The position numbers and the translations under genes are program-made. A DNA stretch of 64,000 nt from Liolophura sinensis (lineage: Eukaryota; Mollusca; Polyplacophora; Chitonida; Chitonidae): contig NC_088302.1 in NCBI RefSeq assembly GCF_032854445.1, positions 15,247,338-15,311,337 on the forward strand. Reading direction: 5' to 3'. Below are positions 1,408-27,545 of the stretch, piece after piece (positions within the stretch are counted from its first letter, which is position 1; the number at the start of each line of letters is the position of its first letter). The notes under the pieces were generated by a model, which worked only from the letters and a program-made list of their open reading frames with translations, did no database searches and was not told where the DNA came from.

Positions 1408-2860
1408 ACACTTTGTGTACACCTATAGGTCCACTTCCATGTACAGACTTTTTGTACATCTATAGGCCCCCTTCCAGAGACCTTGTGTTTCTCTGTAGGT
1501 CCACTTCCACATACACTTTTTGTGCTCATCTATAGGCCCACTCCCATGTATACAGGCTTTGTGATCATCTATAGGCCCACTCCCATGTATACAGGCTTTG
1601 TGTTCATCTGTAGGCCCACTCCCATGTATACAGGTTTTGTGATCATCTATAGGCCCACTCCCATGTATACAGGCTTTGTGATCATCTATAGGCCCACTCC
1701 CATGTATACAGGCTTGTGATCATCTATAGTCCCACTCCCACGTATACAGGCTTTGTGTTCATCTATAGTCCCACTCCTATTGTATACAGGCTTTGTGATC
1801 ATCTATAGGCCCACTCCCATGTATACAGGCTTTGTGATCATCTATAGGCCCACTCCCATGTGTATAGGCTTTGTGATCATCTATAGGCCCACTCCCATGT
1901 ATACAGGCTTTGTGATCATCTATACGCTCATTCCCATGTGTATAGGCTTTGTGATCATCTATAGGCCCACTCCCATGTATACAGGCTTTGTGATCATCTA
2001 TAGTCCAACTCCCACGTATACAAGCTTTGTGTTCATCTATAGCCCCACTCCCATGTGTATAGGCTTTGTGATCATCTATAGGCCCACTCCCATGTATACA
2101 AGCTTTGTGATCATCTATAGGCCCACTCCCATGTATACAGGTTTTGTGTCATCTATAGGCCCACTCCCATGTGTATAGGCTTTGTGATCATCTATAGGCC
2201 CACTCCCATGTGTACAGGCTTTGTGATCATCTATAGGCCCACTCCCATTTATACAGGCTTTGTGTTCATCTATAGGCCCACTCCCATGTATACAGGCTTT
2301 GTGATCATCTATAGTCCCACTCCCATGTATACAGGCTTTGTGTTCATCTATAGTCCTACTCCCATGTATACAGGCTTTGTGATCATCTATAGTCCCACTC
2401 CCATGTATACAGGCTTTGTGATCATCTATAGGCCCACTCCCATGTATACAGGCTTTGTGATCATCTATAGGCCCACTCCTATGTATACAGGCTTTGTGAT
2501 CATCTATAGGCCCACTCCCATGTGTATAGGCTTTGTGATCATGCTTTGTGTTCATCTATAGTCCCACTCCCATGTATACAGGCTTTGTGATCATCTATAG
2601 TCCCACTCCCATGTATACAGGCTTTGTGATCATCTATAGTCCCACTCCCATGTATACAGGCTTTGTGATCATCTATAGGCCCACTCCTATGTATACAGGC
2701 TTTGTGATCATCTATAGGCCCACTCCCATGTGTATAGGCTTTGTGATCATCTATAGGCCTACTCCCATGTGTATAGGCTTTGTGATCATCTATAGTCCCA
2801 CTCCCATGTATACAAGCTTTGTGATCATCTATAGGCCCACTCCTACGTATACAGACATTG
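1408..2860. repeat. Minisatellite, 39-bp unit
   Basis: About 35 head-to-tail units follow the pattern cccactcccatgtatacagg plus ctttgtgatcatctatagg, with few substitutions. Because 39 is divisible by three and the unit has no stop in some frames, long frames run on both strands: a 13-residue repeat YRPTPMYTGFVII on + and HGSGPIDDHKACI on -. The open frames are therefore explained by repeat arithmetic. No splice sites, start context or non-repetitive flanking coding sequence was seen, so I call it non-coding satellite DNA rather than a repeat protein. Confidence 0.9.
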
Positions 2861-3665
2861 TGTTCATCTGTTGGTCCACTCTCATGTATACATTGTGCTC
2901 ATCTGTTGGTCCACTTCCATATACAAATTTTGTATCTGATTTCCATATACAGACTGTGTTTATCTGTAAGCCCACTCTCATATATACAGATTCTATGTTC
3001 ATCTGTTGTTCTTCTCCACTTCCATATAAAGACTTTGTATCTGTAGGTCTACTTCCATATACAGATTTTGTATTTGGAGGTCCACTTCCATATAAAGACT
3101 TTGCATGTGTAGGCTCACTTCCATATATAGACTGTATCTGTAGGTCTACTTCCATGTATACAGAATTTGTGTTCATGTGTTGGTTCACTTCCATATAAAA
3201 ACTTTGTATTTGTGGTTCCACTTCCACATAAAATCTTTGTATGTGTAGACCCACTTCCATATACAGACTTTGTATTTGTGATTCCACTTCCACATAAAAA
3301 CTTTGTATCTGTAGGTGCACTTCCATATAAAGATTTTGTATGTGTAGACTTTGTATGTATAGGTCCACTTCCATATACAGACTTTTGAGTATCTGTAGGT
3401 CCACTTCCGTGTACAGACTTTGTATATATACGCCCACTTCCATATACAGACATTGTATTTGTTGGTCTACTTCCATATACAGACTTTGTATCTGTAGGTC
3501 CACTTCCATATAAAGATTTTGTATGTGTAGGACTTTGTATGTATAGGTCCACTTCCATATACAGACTTTGTGTATCTGTAGGTCCACTTCCATGTACAGA
3601 CTTTGTATATATACGCCCACTTCCATATACAGACTTTGTATTTGTTGGTCTACTTCCATATACAG
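2861..3665. repeat. Degenerate continuation of the 39-bp minisatellite
   Basis: The array continues as diverged units of about 30-45 bp built on 'ggtccacttccatatacaga' and 'ctttgtatctgta'. Unit length varies, so frames break more often than in the homogeneous part. A multi-unit block at about 3360-3490 recurs at about 3541-3660, showing a recent internal duplication. The sharp boundary with the homogeneous half suggests that the 39-bp half is a younger expansion. Confidence 0.85.
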
Positions 3666-13126: not shown

Positions 13127-13491
13127 ATGGAGACAACAGGAGAACACGAGAAGGAAAATCTCCATGAAGCATTACTGCCTGAGATAAGTGGAGCAGAGAC
13201 TGAGCTAAGTGGAGCAGAGGCTTTACCTTCGCATGCGTTACATACAGCATCAGGGGCCAGTGCTTCCAATTCACTGTTCAGTGATGGGAAAGACACCGAA
13301 GCTCCACCAGACCAAATTGCTATCGACTCACACTCTTCTATGGAGAATAAAATGATGTGCCAACCTTTGATCAGCAGTTTTACACGTGCTTCTCAAATCA
13401 ATATTGAAATGGATACAATTGTTACAGTAGAAGTAAACCAACAAAACAGACCAGAAAGAGATTCTAGAAGTCTATCCACAAGTGTACTCAG
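13127..13491 (+). CDS. MARCHF2/3: MARCH exon 1 (coding)
   Basis: Encodes residues 1-121 plus two bases of codon 122 and ends at CTCAG|GTCAGT. It is low-complexity and Ser/Glu-rich with no domain, except that its end (RSLSTSVL) resembles the LLSTVI segment just before the RING in human MARCHF2. The ATG at 13127 has G at +4. Confidence 0.75.
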
Positions 13492-16400
13492 GTCAGTGGG
13501 AATCTTCTTTCCTCTTTCCTTTGTCTATAGAGATAGGGGTCACATACATATTACATGCCATGTCTCTTTAACTTGACATCATATGCCTAAATATATTATA
13601 TATATAAGTATGATTTTGTATGCTTGATTTCCATGTTTTTAATCAAGCATTTAACTTTGACAGAGGAATGTGCAAATGTATATATCGGTATGTGTATCTG
13701 AAAACAACGGTCATTTTAAGGCTGATAAACAAAGGTGAAAAAAGCTGTGTAAAAATATATCAAGTGAGCTTTCAGGAGCCTCTCATCAATGTGGTCGCTT
13801 TGAGTTCAAGGCCAGCTCATGCTGGCTTCCTCTTTGTAATATGTGTGGGTGGGAAATACTCTTGAGTACAGCATGAACACTAATCAGATAAATAAATAAA
13901 TCAAAGCATTTGATTAACTGCATGGCTTCATTTGAAAGATCCATGTCCTTAGATTGAACATGCAGGGTATTGGTAGTAAATTAAATACTTCTTAGTGTTC
14001 TGATTTACATTATTACATACTATCTCATCTTAATGTGACCAAAACCTATGGAATTGTACATTGATGAGAAGTTAACCAAGTCTGTTTACTGTTCCTGGTG
14101 TAGCACCACAAGTGACGGTGCAATCTGTCGTATCTGTCACGATGGGGAAGAGAATGAAGACCTGCTGTCACCATGTCATTGCACCGGCACCGTGGGGCTG
14201 CTACACCTGAGCTGCCTGGAGAAGTGGCTGGGATCCTCTAGCAGGACACGCTGTGAGCTGTGTGGCTTTGAGTACACAGTGGACACCCAGCCTAAACCGT
14301 TTATTGAAGTAAAATTGCATTTCTTATATATACCTGTATGTGTTACACATAATATATATGACTGAAAAATTGTTAAAACGTTAAAACCAAAGCATACAAA
14401 ATATATTGAAAAAAATGGGCATTAGCTGCAGTTGAGCTGAATTAACTTCTTTATTTATTTGAAATTGATTCCTGTTTTTAAAGCAAACTCAACAGTACTT
14501 TTTTGCTTTCACTTTTGGTTGTAAATATGGTAAAGTTCAGATGATTCATACCAACTACAGATTGTATAAGTTAGTTCTGAAATAATAGTTCTAGTGTAAC
14601 TTTCAAAAACTTGATTTCCTACTCGTATAACCATCTCTTTGTTTTTGTGTCTCCAGTGGGTACGCCATCCGTCCTCTGTTAGTGACCGTCGAAATGTGAT
14701 CTGTGATATGTGTTGCTTCTTCCTGCTCACACCACTGGCTACCATCAGCTCCTGGCTCTGTCTGGTCGGGGCCAAGTATTATTCCTACTGGACAGGTCGC
14801 TGGGAAGTGCCTGGGCTGATCTCACTCACAATCTTCCTTATCTTCATCTACCTCACCTGGTGTCTGGTAAGTTATCGCAACTCTCACGGTCCTCCTCATC
14901 TGTGTCTACCTCACCTGGTGTCTGGTAAGTCATCGCAACTCTGACTGTCTTTCTCATCTGTGTCTACCTCACCTGGTGTCTGGTAAGTCATTGCAACTCT
15001 CACTGTCCTCCTCATCTGTATCTACCTCACCTGATGTCTGGTAAGTTATCGCAACTCTCACGGTCTTCCTCATCTGTGTCTACCTCATCTGTGTCTACCT
15101 CACCTGGTGTCTGGTAAGTTATCACGACTCCCACTGTCTTCCTCATCTGTATCTACCTCACCTGATGTCTGGTCAGTTATCGTAACTCTCACGGTCCTCC
15201 TCATCTGTGTCTACCTCACCTGGTGTCTGGTAAGTTATCACAGCTCTCACTGTCTTCCTCATCTGTGTCTACCACACCTGGTGTCTGGTAAGTCATTGCA
15301 ACTCTCACTGTCTTCCTCATCTGTGTCTACCTCACCTTCTGTCTGGTAAGTTATCGTAACTCTCACTGTCTTCCTCATCTGTATCTACCTCACCTGGTGT
15401 CTGGTAAGTTATCACAACTCTCACGGTCCTCCTCATCTGTGTCTACCTCACCTGGTGTCTGGTAAGTCATCGCAACTCTCACTGTCTTTCTCATCTGTGT
15501 CTACCTCACCTGGTGTCTGGTAAGTCATTGCAACTCTCACGGTCTTCCTCATCTGTGTCTACCTCATTTGTGTCTACCTCACCTGGTGTCTGGTAAGTTA
15601 TCACAACTCCCACTGTCTTCCTCATCTGTATCTACCTCACCTGATGTCTGGTAAGTTATCGTAACTCTCACGGTCCTCCTCATCTGTGTCTACCTCACCT
15701 GGTGTCTGGTAAGTCATTGCAACTCTCACTGTCTCCCTCATCTGTGTCTACCTCACCTTCTGTCTGGTAAGTTATCGCAACTCTCACTGTCTTCCTCATC
15801 TGTGTCTACCACACCTGGTGTCTGGTAAGTTATCACAACTCTCACTGTCTTCCTCATCTGTATCTACCTCACCTGATGTCTGGTAAGTTATCGTAACTCT
15901 CACTGTCTTCCTCATCTGTATCTACCTCACCTGATGTCTGGTAAGTTATCACAACTCCCACTGTCTTCCTCATCTGTGTCTACCTCACCTGATGTCTGGT
16001 AAGTTATCGCAACTCTCACGGTCTTCCTCATCTGTGTCTACCTCATCTGTGTCTACCTCACCTGGTGTCTGGTAAGTTATCACGACTCCCACTGTCTTCC
16101 TCATCTGTATCTACCTCACCTGATGTCTGGTCAGTTATCGTAACTCTCACGGTCCTCCTCATCTGTGTCCACCTCACCTGGTGTCTGGTAAGTCATAGCA
16201 ACTCTCACTGTCTTCCTCATCTGTGTCTACCTCACCTTCTGTCTGGTAAGTTATCGTAACTCTCACTGTCTTCCTCATCTGTATCTACCTCACCTGGTGT
16301 CTGGTAAGTTATCACAACTCTCACGGTCCTCCTCATCTGTGTCTACCTCACCTGGTGTCTGGTAAGTCATCGCAACTCTCACTGTCTTCCTCATCTGTGT

Positions 16401-19400
16401 CTACCTCACCTGGTGTCTGGTAAGTCATTGCAACTCTCACGGTCTTCCTCATCTGTGTCTACCTCATTTGTGTCTACCTCACCTGGTGTCTGGTAAGTTA
16501 TCACAACTCCCACTGTCTTCCTCATCTGTATCTACCTCACCTGATGTCTGGTAAGTTATCGTAACTCTCACGGTCCTCCTCATCTGTGTCTACCTCACCT
16601 GGTGTCTGGTAAGTCATTGCAACTCTCACTGTCTCCCTCATCTGTGTCTACCTCACCTTCTGTCTGGTAAGTTATCGCAACTCTCACTGTCTTCCTCATC
16701 TGTGTCTACCACACCTGGTGTCTGGTAAGTTATCACAACTCTCACTGTCTTCCTCATCTGTATCTACCTCACCTGATGTCTGGTAAGTTATCGTAACTCT
16801 CACTGTCTTCCTCATCTGTATCTACCTCACCTGATGTCTGGTAAGTTATCACAACTCCCACTGTCTTCCTCATCTGTGTCTACCTCACCTGATGTCTGGT
16901 AAGTTATCGTAACTCTCACTGTCTTCCTCATCTGTATCTACCTCACCTGGTGTCTGGTAAGTTATCACAACTCCCACTGTCTTCCTCATCTGTGTCTACC
17001 TCACCTGATGTCTGGTAAGTTATTGTAACTCTCACTGTCTTCCTCATCTGTATCTACTTCACCTGATGTCTGGTAAGTTATCGTAACTCTCACGGTCCTC
17101 CTCATCTGTGTCTACCTCACCTGGTGTCTGGTAAGTTATCACAGCTCTCACTGTCTTCCTCATCTGTGTCTACCTCACCTGGTGTCTGGTAAGTCATTGC
17201 AACTCTCACTGTTCTCCTCATCTGTATCTACCTCACCTGATATCTGGTAAGTTATCGTAACTCTCACTGTCTTCCTCATCTGTATCTACTTCACCTGATG
17301 TCTGGTAAGTTATCACAACTCTCACTGTCTTTCTCATCTGTGTCTACCTCACCTGGTGTCTGGTAAGTCATTGCAACTCTCACTGTTCTCCTCATCTGTA
17401 TCTACCTCACCTGATGTCTGGTAAGTTATCGCAACTCTCACTGTCTTCCTCATCTGTATCTACTTCACCTGATGTCTGGTAAGTTATCGTAACTCTCACG
17501 GTCCTCCTCATCTGTGTCTACCTCACCTGGTGTCTGGTAAGTTATCACAGCTCTCACTGTCTTCCTCATCTGTGTCTACCTCACCTGGTGTCTGGTAAGT
17601 TATCGTAACTCTCACTGTCTTCGTCGTCTGTGTCTACCTCACCTGGTGTCTGGTAAGTTATCACAACTCCCACTGTCTTCCTCATCTGTATCTACCTCAC
17701 CTGGTGTCTGGTAAGTTATCACAGCTCTCACTGTCTTCCTCATCTGTGTCTACCTCACCTGCTGTCTGGTAAGTTATCGTAACTCTCACTGTCTTCCTCA
17801 TCTGTGTCTACCTCACCTGATGTCTGGTAAGTTATCACAACTCCCACTGTCTTCCTCATCTGTATCTACCTCACCTGATGTCTGGTAAGTTATTGTAACT
17901 CTCACTGTCTTCCTCATCTGTGTCTACCTCACCTGCTGTCTGGTAAGTCATCGCAACTCTCACTGTCTTCCTCATCTGTGTCTACCTCACCTGATGTCTG
18001 GTAAGTTATCACAACTCTCACGGTCCTCCTCATTTGTGTCTACCTCACCTGGTGTCTGGTAAGTTATCGCAATACTCACTGTCTTCCTCATCTGTATCTA
18101 CCTCACCTGGTGTCTGGTAAGTAATTGCAACTCTCACTGTCTTCCTCATCTGTGTCTACCTCACCTGGTGTCTGGTAAGTTATCACAACTCTCACTGTCT
18201 TCCTCATCTGTGTCTACCTCACCTGATGTCTGGTAAGTTATCGCAACTCTCACTGTCTTCCTCATCTGTGTCTACCTCACTTGGTGTCTGGTGAGTTATC
18301 GCAACTCTCACTGTCTTTCTCATCTGTGTCTACCTCACCTGGTGTCTGGTAAGTTATCGCAACTCTCACTGTCTTCCTCATCTGTGTCCAACTCACCTGG
18401 TGTCTGGTAAGTTATCACAACTCTCACGGTCCTCCTCATCTGTGTCTACCTCACCTTCTGTCTGGTAAGTTATCGCAACTCTCACTGTCTTCCTCATCTG
18501 TGTCTACCTCACCTGGTGTCTGGTAAGTTATCACAACTCTCACTGTCTCCCTCATCTGTATCTACCTCACCTTCTGTCTGGTAAGTTATCACAACTCTCA
18601 CTGTCTTCCTCATCTGTGTCTACCTCACCTGATGTCTGGTAAGTTATCACAACTCACTAACCATGTTTACAGTTCTGTCATTGTCTCCCATATCTGTGTT
18701 TACCTCATCTTTTATCTGGTATAAAGTGATCAATTTTTAACAGACTCACTGTCTCTTCATCTGTATACAACTCACCTGTTGTCTCACATTAAGTTGATTT
18801 GTCAAGGCATGCAGTTTCACCTCTTATTGTCAATCCATCATACCAAATTGGCATCTTGACATTTTTATTTTATTTTCTTGCCTTTTATTAGCATATTTTA
18901 GGTATAAAGACACTTCTGTTATTCATATATTAACTCTGTTTTGATTGTCTGGGTTCATAGGTGGTGGTCAGATATCACTATCGTATCTGGCTGGAGTGGA
19001 AGCGTCACAACCAGATTGTGCGGATCCGTGCTGTCAGACGAGGGAATGTAGTTAGGCGGAATCTGACTTCATCCACAGGGAGTCAACTCCTCAATTGTGA
19101 CAGCAGCCTGAGGAGCAGGACCAGCCCTGTCAGGGAGCCTCAGGCTGAAGACAACAATAACAATGCCTCTATATTGCTGGTGGACGAGGAGGAGGAAGAA
19201 GATGTCATTGTCGAGGTTACTGGAGGTGCTGGGCAGAGAGGATCCTACCGTCTCCTGTCTGACTCCAGTAACCTTGTCTGCAGCCCGAACAAACTGCCCC
19301 GACACCGACACAGCTCCTCATCCAGTCAAAGGTCTAAGTTACACTCCACCAGCTTCAGCCCAAGCCGACCCAACCCCCGGAATTCCAGTACGTCGTCAGC

Positions 19401-19638
19401 AGAAGGGGAGATAACTGCGCCCCTCCTGGGAGCTACCTCGGGTAGAGAGCCCTCCTGGGGCAGACAGTGTGTCAGTCGCTCTCTAATGCTTGACCCAGGG
19501 TTCTCAGAGCCACAGTCAATGTCTGTTCACTCCACCGTTGTCACCTACCAGCACATTACCGATGATGTTTTCACAACTCTGACAGACCCAGACAGGTTCA
19601 CAAGAAAGACAGGCAGAGTCAAAGAGAGTTTTGTGTAA
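13127..19638 (+). CDS. MARCHF2/3: MARCHF2/3-type RING-CH E3 ubiquitin ligase (4 exons)
   Basis: Joined exons 13127-13491, 14104-14308, 14657-14866 and 18961-19638 encode 485 aa. The RING-CH domain at residues 130-175 has all eight zinc ligands (C130, C133, C146, C148, H156, C159, C172, C175). Two membrane segments follow (about 204-228 and 242-262), then a basic juxtamembrane stretch RYHYRIWLEWKR. The last four residues, ESFV, form a class I PDZ ligand like the ETPV/ETVV ends of human MARCHF2/3. The family places ubiquitin on membrane proteins in endosomes and the plasma membrane and directs their trafficking. Human MARCHF2/3 are about 250 aa; the extra length here is a 121-residue disordered N-terminus and a Ser-rich C-terminal tail with an acidic DEEEEED patch. 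Phases at all three junctions agree. Confidence 0.92.
13767..13900 (+). repeat. SINE family 2 fragment in MARCH intron 1
   Basis: Shares 'aggagcctctcatcaatg', a B-box-like 'tttgagttcaagg' and 'cagctcatgctggcttcctc' with the copy at 22460-22710, then a shortened tail and ATAAATAAATAAA. Confidence 0.7.
14104..14308 (+). CDS. MARCHF2/3: MARCH exon 2: RING-CH domain
   Basis: The acceptor GTTCCTGGTGTAG|C restores codon 122 as Ser. The exon encodes residues 122-190 with the entire zinc-binding domain and the conserved KPFIE exit. The donor is GAA|GTAAAA. An upstream AAG acceptor candidate at 14090 would break the frame. Confidence 0.93.
14657..14866 (+). CDS. MARCHF2/3: MARCH exon 3: both membrane segments
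   Basis: The acceptor is GTGTCTCCAG|TGG. 70 codons (residues 191-260) hold TM1 (CCFFLLTPLATISSWLCLVG) and most of TM2 (LISLTIFLIFIYLTWCL). The donor CTG|GTAAGT is the first of a long series: the last 40 or so bases of this exon are the ancestor of the tandem repeat that fills the next intron. Confidence 0.93.
14867..18655 (+). repeat. 58-bp tandem array copied from the exon 3/intron boundary
   Basis: About 64 head-to-tail units, mostly exactly 58 bp (gt positions 14867, 14925, 14983 and so on), with a few 75-bp variants that double an internal 17-bp stretch. Each unit ends in 'tacctcacctggtgtctg' followed by 'gtaagt', which is the 3' end of MARCH exon 3 plus its 5' splice site. Upstream similarity to the exon extends through 'tcttcct'. 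Variants include CTGGTCAGT (near 15170 and 16130) and CTGGTGAGT (near 18290). The array is pyrimidine-rich on the sense strand. It sits wholly in the intron, whose true acceptor is at 18960. Confidence 0.95.
18656..18960 (+). other. Unique 3' part of MARCH intron 3
   Basis: Decayed repeat units (to about 18790) give way to T-rich intron sequence ending in GGGTTCATAG, the acceptor of exon 4. Confidence 0.8.
18961..19638 (+). CDS. MARCHF2/3: MARCH exon 4: cytoplasmic tail
   Basis: 225 codons (residues 261-485) begin VVVRYHYRIWLEWKRHNQIV, which aligns with the LVSFRYHCRLYNEW segment of human MARCHF3. They continue with an acidic patch and Ser/Pro-rich disorder, then end in KESFV and TAA. The exon is more GC-rich than its flanks, as expected of coding DNA. 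Confidence 0.9.
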   Translation: MVVRYHYRIWLEWKRHNQIVRIRAVRRGNVVRRNLTSSTGSQLLNCDSSLRSRTSPVREPQAEDNNNNASILLVDEEEEEDVIVEVTGGAGQRGSYRLLSDSSNLVCSPNKLPRHRHSSSSSQRSKLHSTSFSPSRPNPRNSSTSSAEGEITAPLLGATSGREPSWGRQCVSRSLMLDPGFSEPQSMSVHSTVVTYQHITDDVFTTLTDPDRFTRKTGRVKESFV

Positions 19639-26984: not shown

Positions 26985-27205
26985 GCCTACTCGATACAGT
27001 TCCCGAGGGGCAGTTGGTCTACCCGACGGTTTTCCGGGGAATAAATTTAACAGTAAGTCTACTCGATGCAGCTCCCAAGAGACCTAGTTGTTCCACCTGA
27101 TGTTTTTCCCGGGGGATAAGTTTATTCGTAAGTCTACTCGATGTAGTTTCCTAGAGACGTGTTCGTTCTACCCGATGATCTTCCCGAAGAGTCATTAAGA
27201 GAAAT
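26985..27205. repeat. Three-copy tandem repeat, about 73-bp unit
   Basis: The motif 'ctactcgatgcag' recurs at 26987, 27059 and 27134. Each is followed by 'gttc(t/c)accygatg' and a 'tttcccgggggataa'-like block. Units are diverged, so it is an old small array. Confidence 0.8.
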
Positions 27206-27474: not shown

Positions 27475-27545
27475 CTACGATGGCGGTTAGTTTCATGGAG
27501 GAAACCAGTGAGCAAAGACATAAACCGTCGATCTTTGGTAAGTTA
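27475..27545. repeat. Repeat family 3 fragment
   Basis: Contains 'cggttagtttcatggagga' and 'accgtcgatctttggtaag', a diverged form of the family 3 core at 51585 and 61120. Confidence 0.4.

Follow-up and report, generated by a model that had tools for sequence, protein, structure and literature searches.

The window analysed here is a stretch of 64 kb on contig C8 of the 609-Mb assembly of the chiton Liolophura, a marine mollusc, and it contains a MARCH-type gene whose last intron carries a 58-bp minisatellite that begins within the preceding exon (Table 1). The four coding exons, joined computationally by way of the first donor (5' splice site), give one open frame of 485 aa, and the closing of this frame bears out the donor at 14866/14867 and the acceptor at 18960 that an initial annotation of this DNA had proposed. 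The gene probably encodes a membrane MARCH-type ubiquitin ligase, as suggested by the RINGv domain of exon 2 and the hydrophobic segments of exon 3; exon 3 alone had no Pfam match, and its best PDB match (E 0.17) is not significant. The intron that harbors the array is in phase 0.

The repeat unit spans the exon-intron boundary, comprising 42 nt of the end of exon 3 and 16 nt of the start of the intron. Its recurrence creates 65 evenly spaced donors, of which the first is the authentic one at 14867 and the other 64 are intronic and lie within 3.8 kb. The step from donor to donor measures 58 bp in 60 of 64 cases and 73 bp in the remaining four, and every copy carries the splice signal, with GT kept in 65/65 donors (GTAAGT 62, GTCAGT 2, GTGAGT 1). 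In the window, the word CTGGTAAGT has 62 occurrences, all on the forward strand and between 14864 and 18644, compared with an expectation of 0.64 and a maximum of three in 100 shuffles. When the exon copy is compared with a consensus built from the 64 intronic units, 6 of its 42 exonic positions differ and none of its 16 intronic ones. These data agree with the initial annotation in its description of about 64 tandem copies of a 5' splice site, of a unit formed by the last 40 or so bases of exon 3 plus its donor, and of a consensus donor in nearly every unit (62/65). Of the extent given there (14820 to 18655) the end stands, but the start moves to 14825 in the Tandem Repeats Finder (TRF) result, and decayed copies continue from about 18670 to 18796. 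Inverted repeats of at least 16 nt are absent from 14650-19000, and no Rfam family matches the window at gathering scores. The longest open stretches are 104, 88 and 62 codons on the forward strand (intron) and 44, 44 and 41 codons on the reverse strand (array), with many stops.

The interior of the array is homogenised, as documented by a mean pairwise identity of the units of 0.917 and by the recurrence of a 790-bp block, while the copies beyond 18655 have decayed; this is the pattern of concerted evolution from which the edge is excluded. The block and the unit identity represent ordinary tandem-array turnover. When the assembly was searched with two units, all 30 of the at least 30 matches fell inside the MARCH array, and although such counts are lower bounds, the single locus found, together with the composition of the unit, supports the earlier proposal that the unit originated from exon 3 and speaks against a dispersed satellite.

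Table 1. Features of the MARCH-type gene and its array (positions in the window) and further chiton arrays of the same anatomy
Feature	Position	Strand	Basis or remark
Exon 1, coding part	13127..13491	+	Open frame joins exon 2
Exon 2, RINGv domain	14104..14308	+	Pfam PF12906, E 4.6e-16 on 14108-14314
Exon 3, hydrophobic segments	14657..14866	+	Frame, unit alignment; final 42 nt (14825-14866) make up the exonic portion of each unit
58-bp minisatellite, 65 copies including exon copy	14825..18655	+	TRF period 58, 65.0 copies, 86% matches
Authentic 5' splice site CTG/GTAAGT	14867..14872	+	
TGA in frame with exon 3 on intron read-through	14942..14944	+	
Array block	15256..16045	+	Recurs 900 bp on at 16156-16945, 7 mismatches in 790 bp
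Decayed copy past array edge	18670..18735	+	GTATAA replaces GTAAGT at 18719; 17/25 anchor matches; extent by eye
Second decayed copy, donor lost	18743..18796	+	By eye only
Last coding exon	18961..19638	+	Acceptor CATAG ends at 18960; open frame to stop
25-bp array, ~32 copies, at donor of Ig-like exon	L018 9496-10000 (C8:25,009,496 on), into L051		4 nt of exon in unit
EGF-like exon with 51-bp array of its end	L026 6906-7682	+	Present twice, inverted, ~6.5 kb apart
The same, second occurrence	L026 80 to ~430	-	
Array in RPC1 gene	L047/L052, C1:14,888,800-14,890,352		Degenerate copies appear to continue in L058

Arrays of this kind are already known from lancelets, where one in the amphioxus Adh3 gene was reportedly described by Canestro and colleagues in 2002. 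Two papers describe such mirages as minisatellite-like tandem duplications across exon-intron boundaries and place them in the Adh3, globin (BflGb6, BflGb9; PMC3087553), troponin C and PGBD5 genes (PMC3902484). In the former, their interiors are homogenised and the edges of the clusters are excluded; boundary-spanning units and many copies that carry a splice signal complete the likeness to the MARCH array, a long molluscan mirage. The two cases differ in copy number, as BflGb6 has three and six copies in two haplotypes compared with 65 in the chiton, and in unit length, which is 10-72 bp in Adh3 and 150-160 bp in BflGb6 compared with 58 bp. Amphioxus splicing was checked by RT-PCR, and the Adh3 data and the globin RT-PCR suggest that the copies leave splicing undisturbed (PMC3087553, PMC3902484). 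PMC3087553 also discusses how introns may be gained through tandemly duplicated AG/GT proto-splice sites; this process shares the tandem duplication of a splice signal with the chiton case, which however enlarges an existing intron and forms no new one. In our literature search, whose coverage of subscription papers is thin, we recognised no mirage outside amphioxus. The MARCH array adds a mollusc to the lancelets in which mirages were known, and such arrays make visible one way in which the end of an exon is turned into intron sequence.

The explanation that we favor, with a rough probability of 0.82, is that the MARCH array is a neutral mirage minisatellite, in which the growth of a repeat has been tolerated, and not a splicing device. 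Tandem duplication of 58 bp spanning the donor of exon 3 would have come first, the extra copies landing in the intron, and the array may subsequently have grown by unequal exchange or slippage, with a stretch of 790 bp or more being duplicated as a whole. The first donor, joined to the real exon body, would be the one in use and all copies would be spliced out with the intron, so that the array could be tolerated. Youth or homogenisation of the array, and not a need for each donor, would explain why the donors look intact.

The same anatomy recurs at other chiton genes. Our survey of contig C1 covered the 18 listed arrays bearing GGTAAGT up to 18.4 Mb, with 1 kb read per 5' edge, and exons at array edges were called by eye and not blind, on the basis of an open frame, an acceptor and a match to the unit. 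In nine of the 18, the array starts where an apparent coding exon has its donor, and homology supports four of these nine exons, namely, those with matches to DUF4457 (E 3.3e-15), RNA polymerase III RPC1 (E 9.8e-8), cadherin (E 4.9e-5, 24.1 bits, below the Pfam curated cut-off) and N-acetylneuraminate lyase (E 9.2e-4). Edge exons counted by eye only are those of L031 (Pfam only tried, the best match being RVT_thumb at a chance-level 0.076), L033 (none in Pfam, a PDB chitinase at 0.46), L036 and L044 (none in Pfam or PDB) and L040 (Pfam only tried, none); the Pfam match of L039 is weak (0.16). TRPM-like, GCNT-like and GH18-like, as tentative names for these exons without a significant match, are impressions. 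No edge exon, or an ambiguous one, was seen in L030, L035, L037, L038, L041, L042, L043, L045 and L046, in some cases because the array extends past the sequence read, and the next RPC1 exon was not recognised in the 2.85 kb beyond its array. A second sample of 264 kb consisted of 20 stretches of 10 kb from C8 together with the window; minisatellites were accepted with a period of at least 20, at least 2.5 copies and a score of at least 100, overlapping rows being merged, and of the 39 obtained, the ones containing donor words were inspected for exons. The 20 stretches contain mirage-like arrays at one Ig-like exon (I-set, E 0.0055) and one EGF-like exon (best E 0.0098), both matches being below the cut-off. 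Across 12 measured arrays, the length of exon copied into the unit ranges from 1 to 51 nt. The 39 minisatellites sum to 32,910 bases, or 12.5% of the sample, as in a minisatellite-rich genome.

If the donors served as a sink or a reserve, less variation would be expected in them than elsewhere in the unit, and 11 arrays were compared in this respect. The percentile of the donor 9-mer has a mean of 0.45, as expected without selection (Kolmogorov-Smirnov p 0.46), and in the ten arrays other than MARCH the windows that vary as little as the donor or less number 26/67, 46/56, 41/46, 8/25, 8/44, 35/41, 10/61, 9/23, 29/60 (the array of 2.6 copies) and 16/34. Nine of the 11 arrays were selected by exact copies of GGTAAGT, which biases the set toward conserved donors, and the absence of donor conservation is thus a conservative result. 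Several observations nevertheless weigh against neutrality. Within the MARCH array few parts of the unit vary as little as the donor 9-mer (2/58 windows are as low, itself included), two donor changes are inferred compared with 9.2 on average (permutation p 0.025), and no donor among the 65 has lost its GT. The comparison of 11 arrays is itself limited, in that the cadherin array with its 2.6 copies carries little information and the EGF array is outside the set. A value as low as that of MARCH is expected among 11 arrays with a chance of 0.32 and is not unusual, and we dropped the constraint seen in MARCH alone as evidence of function after the even spread over the 11 arrays had emerged.

How the spliceosome would deal with such arrays may be judged from those in which the second donor is the better one. 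Duplex energies with the U1 end are predicted values: in the RPC1 array the first donor CAG/GTAAAT (-8.3 kcal/mol) is weaker than the next, CAG/GTAAGT (-12.9), and in the L040 gene, whose exon was recognised by eye only, the corresponding values are -5.5 and -10.5. The exon body is joined to the first donor only, although the second is stronger, so that choice by position is the likely rule. In the KATNIP-like and EGF-like genes, the donor of the immediately following copy is lost or weak (CTAAAT, GTGATT). Where a single exon is followed by dozens of donors that are nearly identical, a natural experiment is offered on how the first of many equal or stronger 5' splice sites is chosen. Such arrays recur at unrelated genes, one of them a polymerase III subunit. 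We advance only tentatively the broader proposal that mirages form a genome-wide class in chiton genes, with donors as preferred seeds, the number of "hundreds" being a rough extrapolation from the 18 arrays that are listed up to 18.4 Mb of C1 and of which half lie at exon ends. Should it be true, the stronger donors right behind the weaker authentic one of RPC1 would imply that splicing must choose by position and not by donor strength.

The part of this proposal that can be compared with controls is the seeding. Exon donors might be preferred seeds of minisatellites, e.g. via intermediates of transcription or splicing, which would be compatible with neutrality but which we regard as rather unlikely. 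Apparent exon ends were seen by eye at 9 of 18 GGTAAGT arrays compared with 5 of 20 GGTAAGT words outside arrays (Fisher p 0.18), with unequal homology effort, since four of the five control exon ends were tried, in Pfam only, and none was significant. In the first 4.12 Mb of C1, ten listed arrays contain GGTAAGT and eight the reversed word, against a background outside arrays of 20 and 44, respectively, so that per occurrence the donor word exceeds its reverse (one-sided p 0.028). The three-fold word CAGGTAAGT likewise has 316 whole-genome matches compared with 171 for its reverse. The whole-genome counts for three-fold donor words do not favor the donor (1192 + 1435 = 2627 vs 1538 + 1534 = 3072 for the reversed word); these whole-genome figures count matches and not arrays, and the reversed word is the sole control listed. 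In the 264-kb sample the donor word is no outlier: two arrays contain GGTRAGT, whereas 300 permuted words average 0.68 arrays and 58 of them equal or surpass the donor word. The evidence for donor-favored seeding is weak and mixed, and random seeding in a repeat-rich genome may suffice for now.

A regulated splicing device, in which downstream donors yield a truncated ligase or an mRNA subject to nonsense-mediated decay and thereby tune the MARCH output, appears improbable. A precedent exists in the minisatellite of the human IFI6 (6-16) gene, which has a short unit sited at an exon-intron boundary and is the subject of a 1995 paper by Turri and colleagues. In IFI6 mRNAs, two of the downstream repeat units serve as donors (PMC4526556), whereas the products of downstream MARCH donors are predictions. 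The first extra donor would give a protein of 310 aa with a foreign tail, and every donor from the second extra one onward the same product of 285 aa, ended by the TGA at 14942. With the third extra donor in use, this stop would precede the last junction by 96 nt, and with the later donors listed by more, as would suit a decay substrate. On paper, the array thus offers two truncated proteins and not the ladder of tail isoforms envisaged in the initial annotation. The arithmetic of 58 = 3n+1 is correct, but that three units would keep the frame has no consequence, because the TGA is in frame. The predicted U1 duplex energy is -9.1 in 61 of the 65 MARCH donors, -10.7 and -9.2 in one each and -5.0 in two, and these energies, together with the low variation of the donors in MARCH alone, would suit such a device. 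Against it stand the lack of preferential donor conservation over the 11 arrays, the occurrence of the same anatomy at unrelated genes, and the amphioxus mirages, which reportedly give no aberrant mRNAs.

Neutral growth is likewise much to be preferred over a U1 small nuclear ribonucleoprotein sink, or a shield of the pre-mRNA against early cleavage. The 64 intronic donor copies in 3.8 kb invite this idea, an extension of the sink that, together with a splice-buffer role and tail isoforms, had been put forward initially; none of these initial functional proposals is supported. The 11-array result speaks against a sink, as does the KATNIP-like array, which keeps the G of GT in 55% of its copies, and we consider the idea very improbable. 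An assembly artefact is hardly credible: tandem arrays are prone to misassembly, and one globin mirage was judged misassembled in an amphioxus draft (PMC3087553), but the HiFi reads of the chiton, with a mean of 8,347 bp at 14X, can span 3.8 kb, and further arrays of the mirage type exist in the assembly.

Three additional repeats deserve mention. L043 contains a 35-bp donor-bearing array that by eye appears to sit immediately upstream of an acceptor belonging to an opposite-strand exon. In the window, a large minisatellite of 33-39 bp at 1519-3665 shows regular TATAG and ACAG (acceptor-like) steps, with no edge exon recognised by eye, and a 75-bp repeat with GTAAGT at 26987-27186 is followed downstream by what looks like a first coding exon, with its ATG near 27480 and its donor at 27538.

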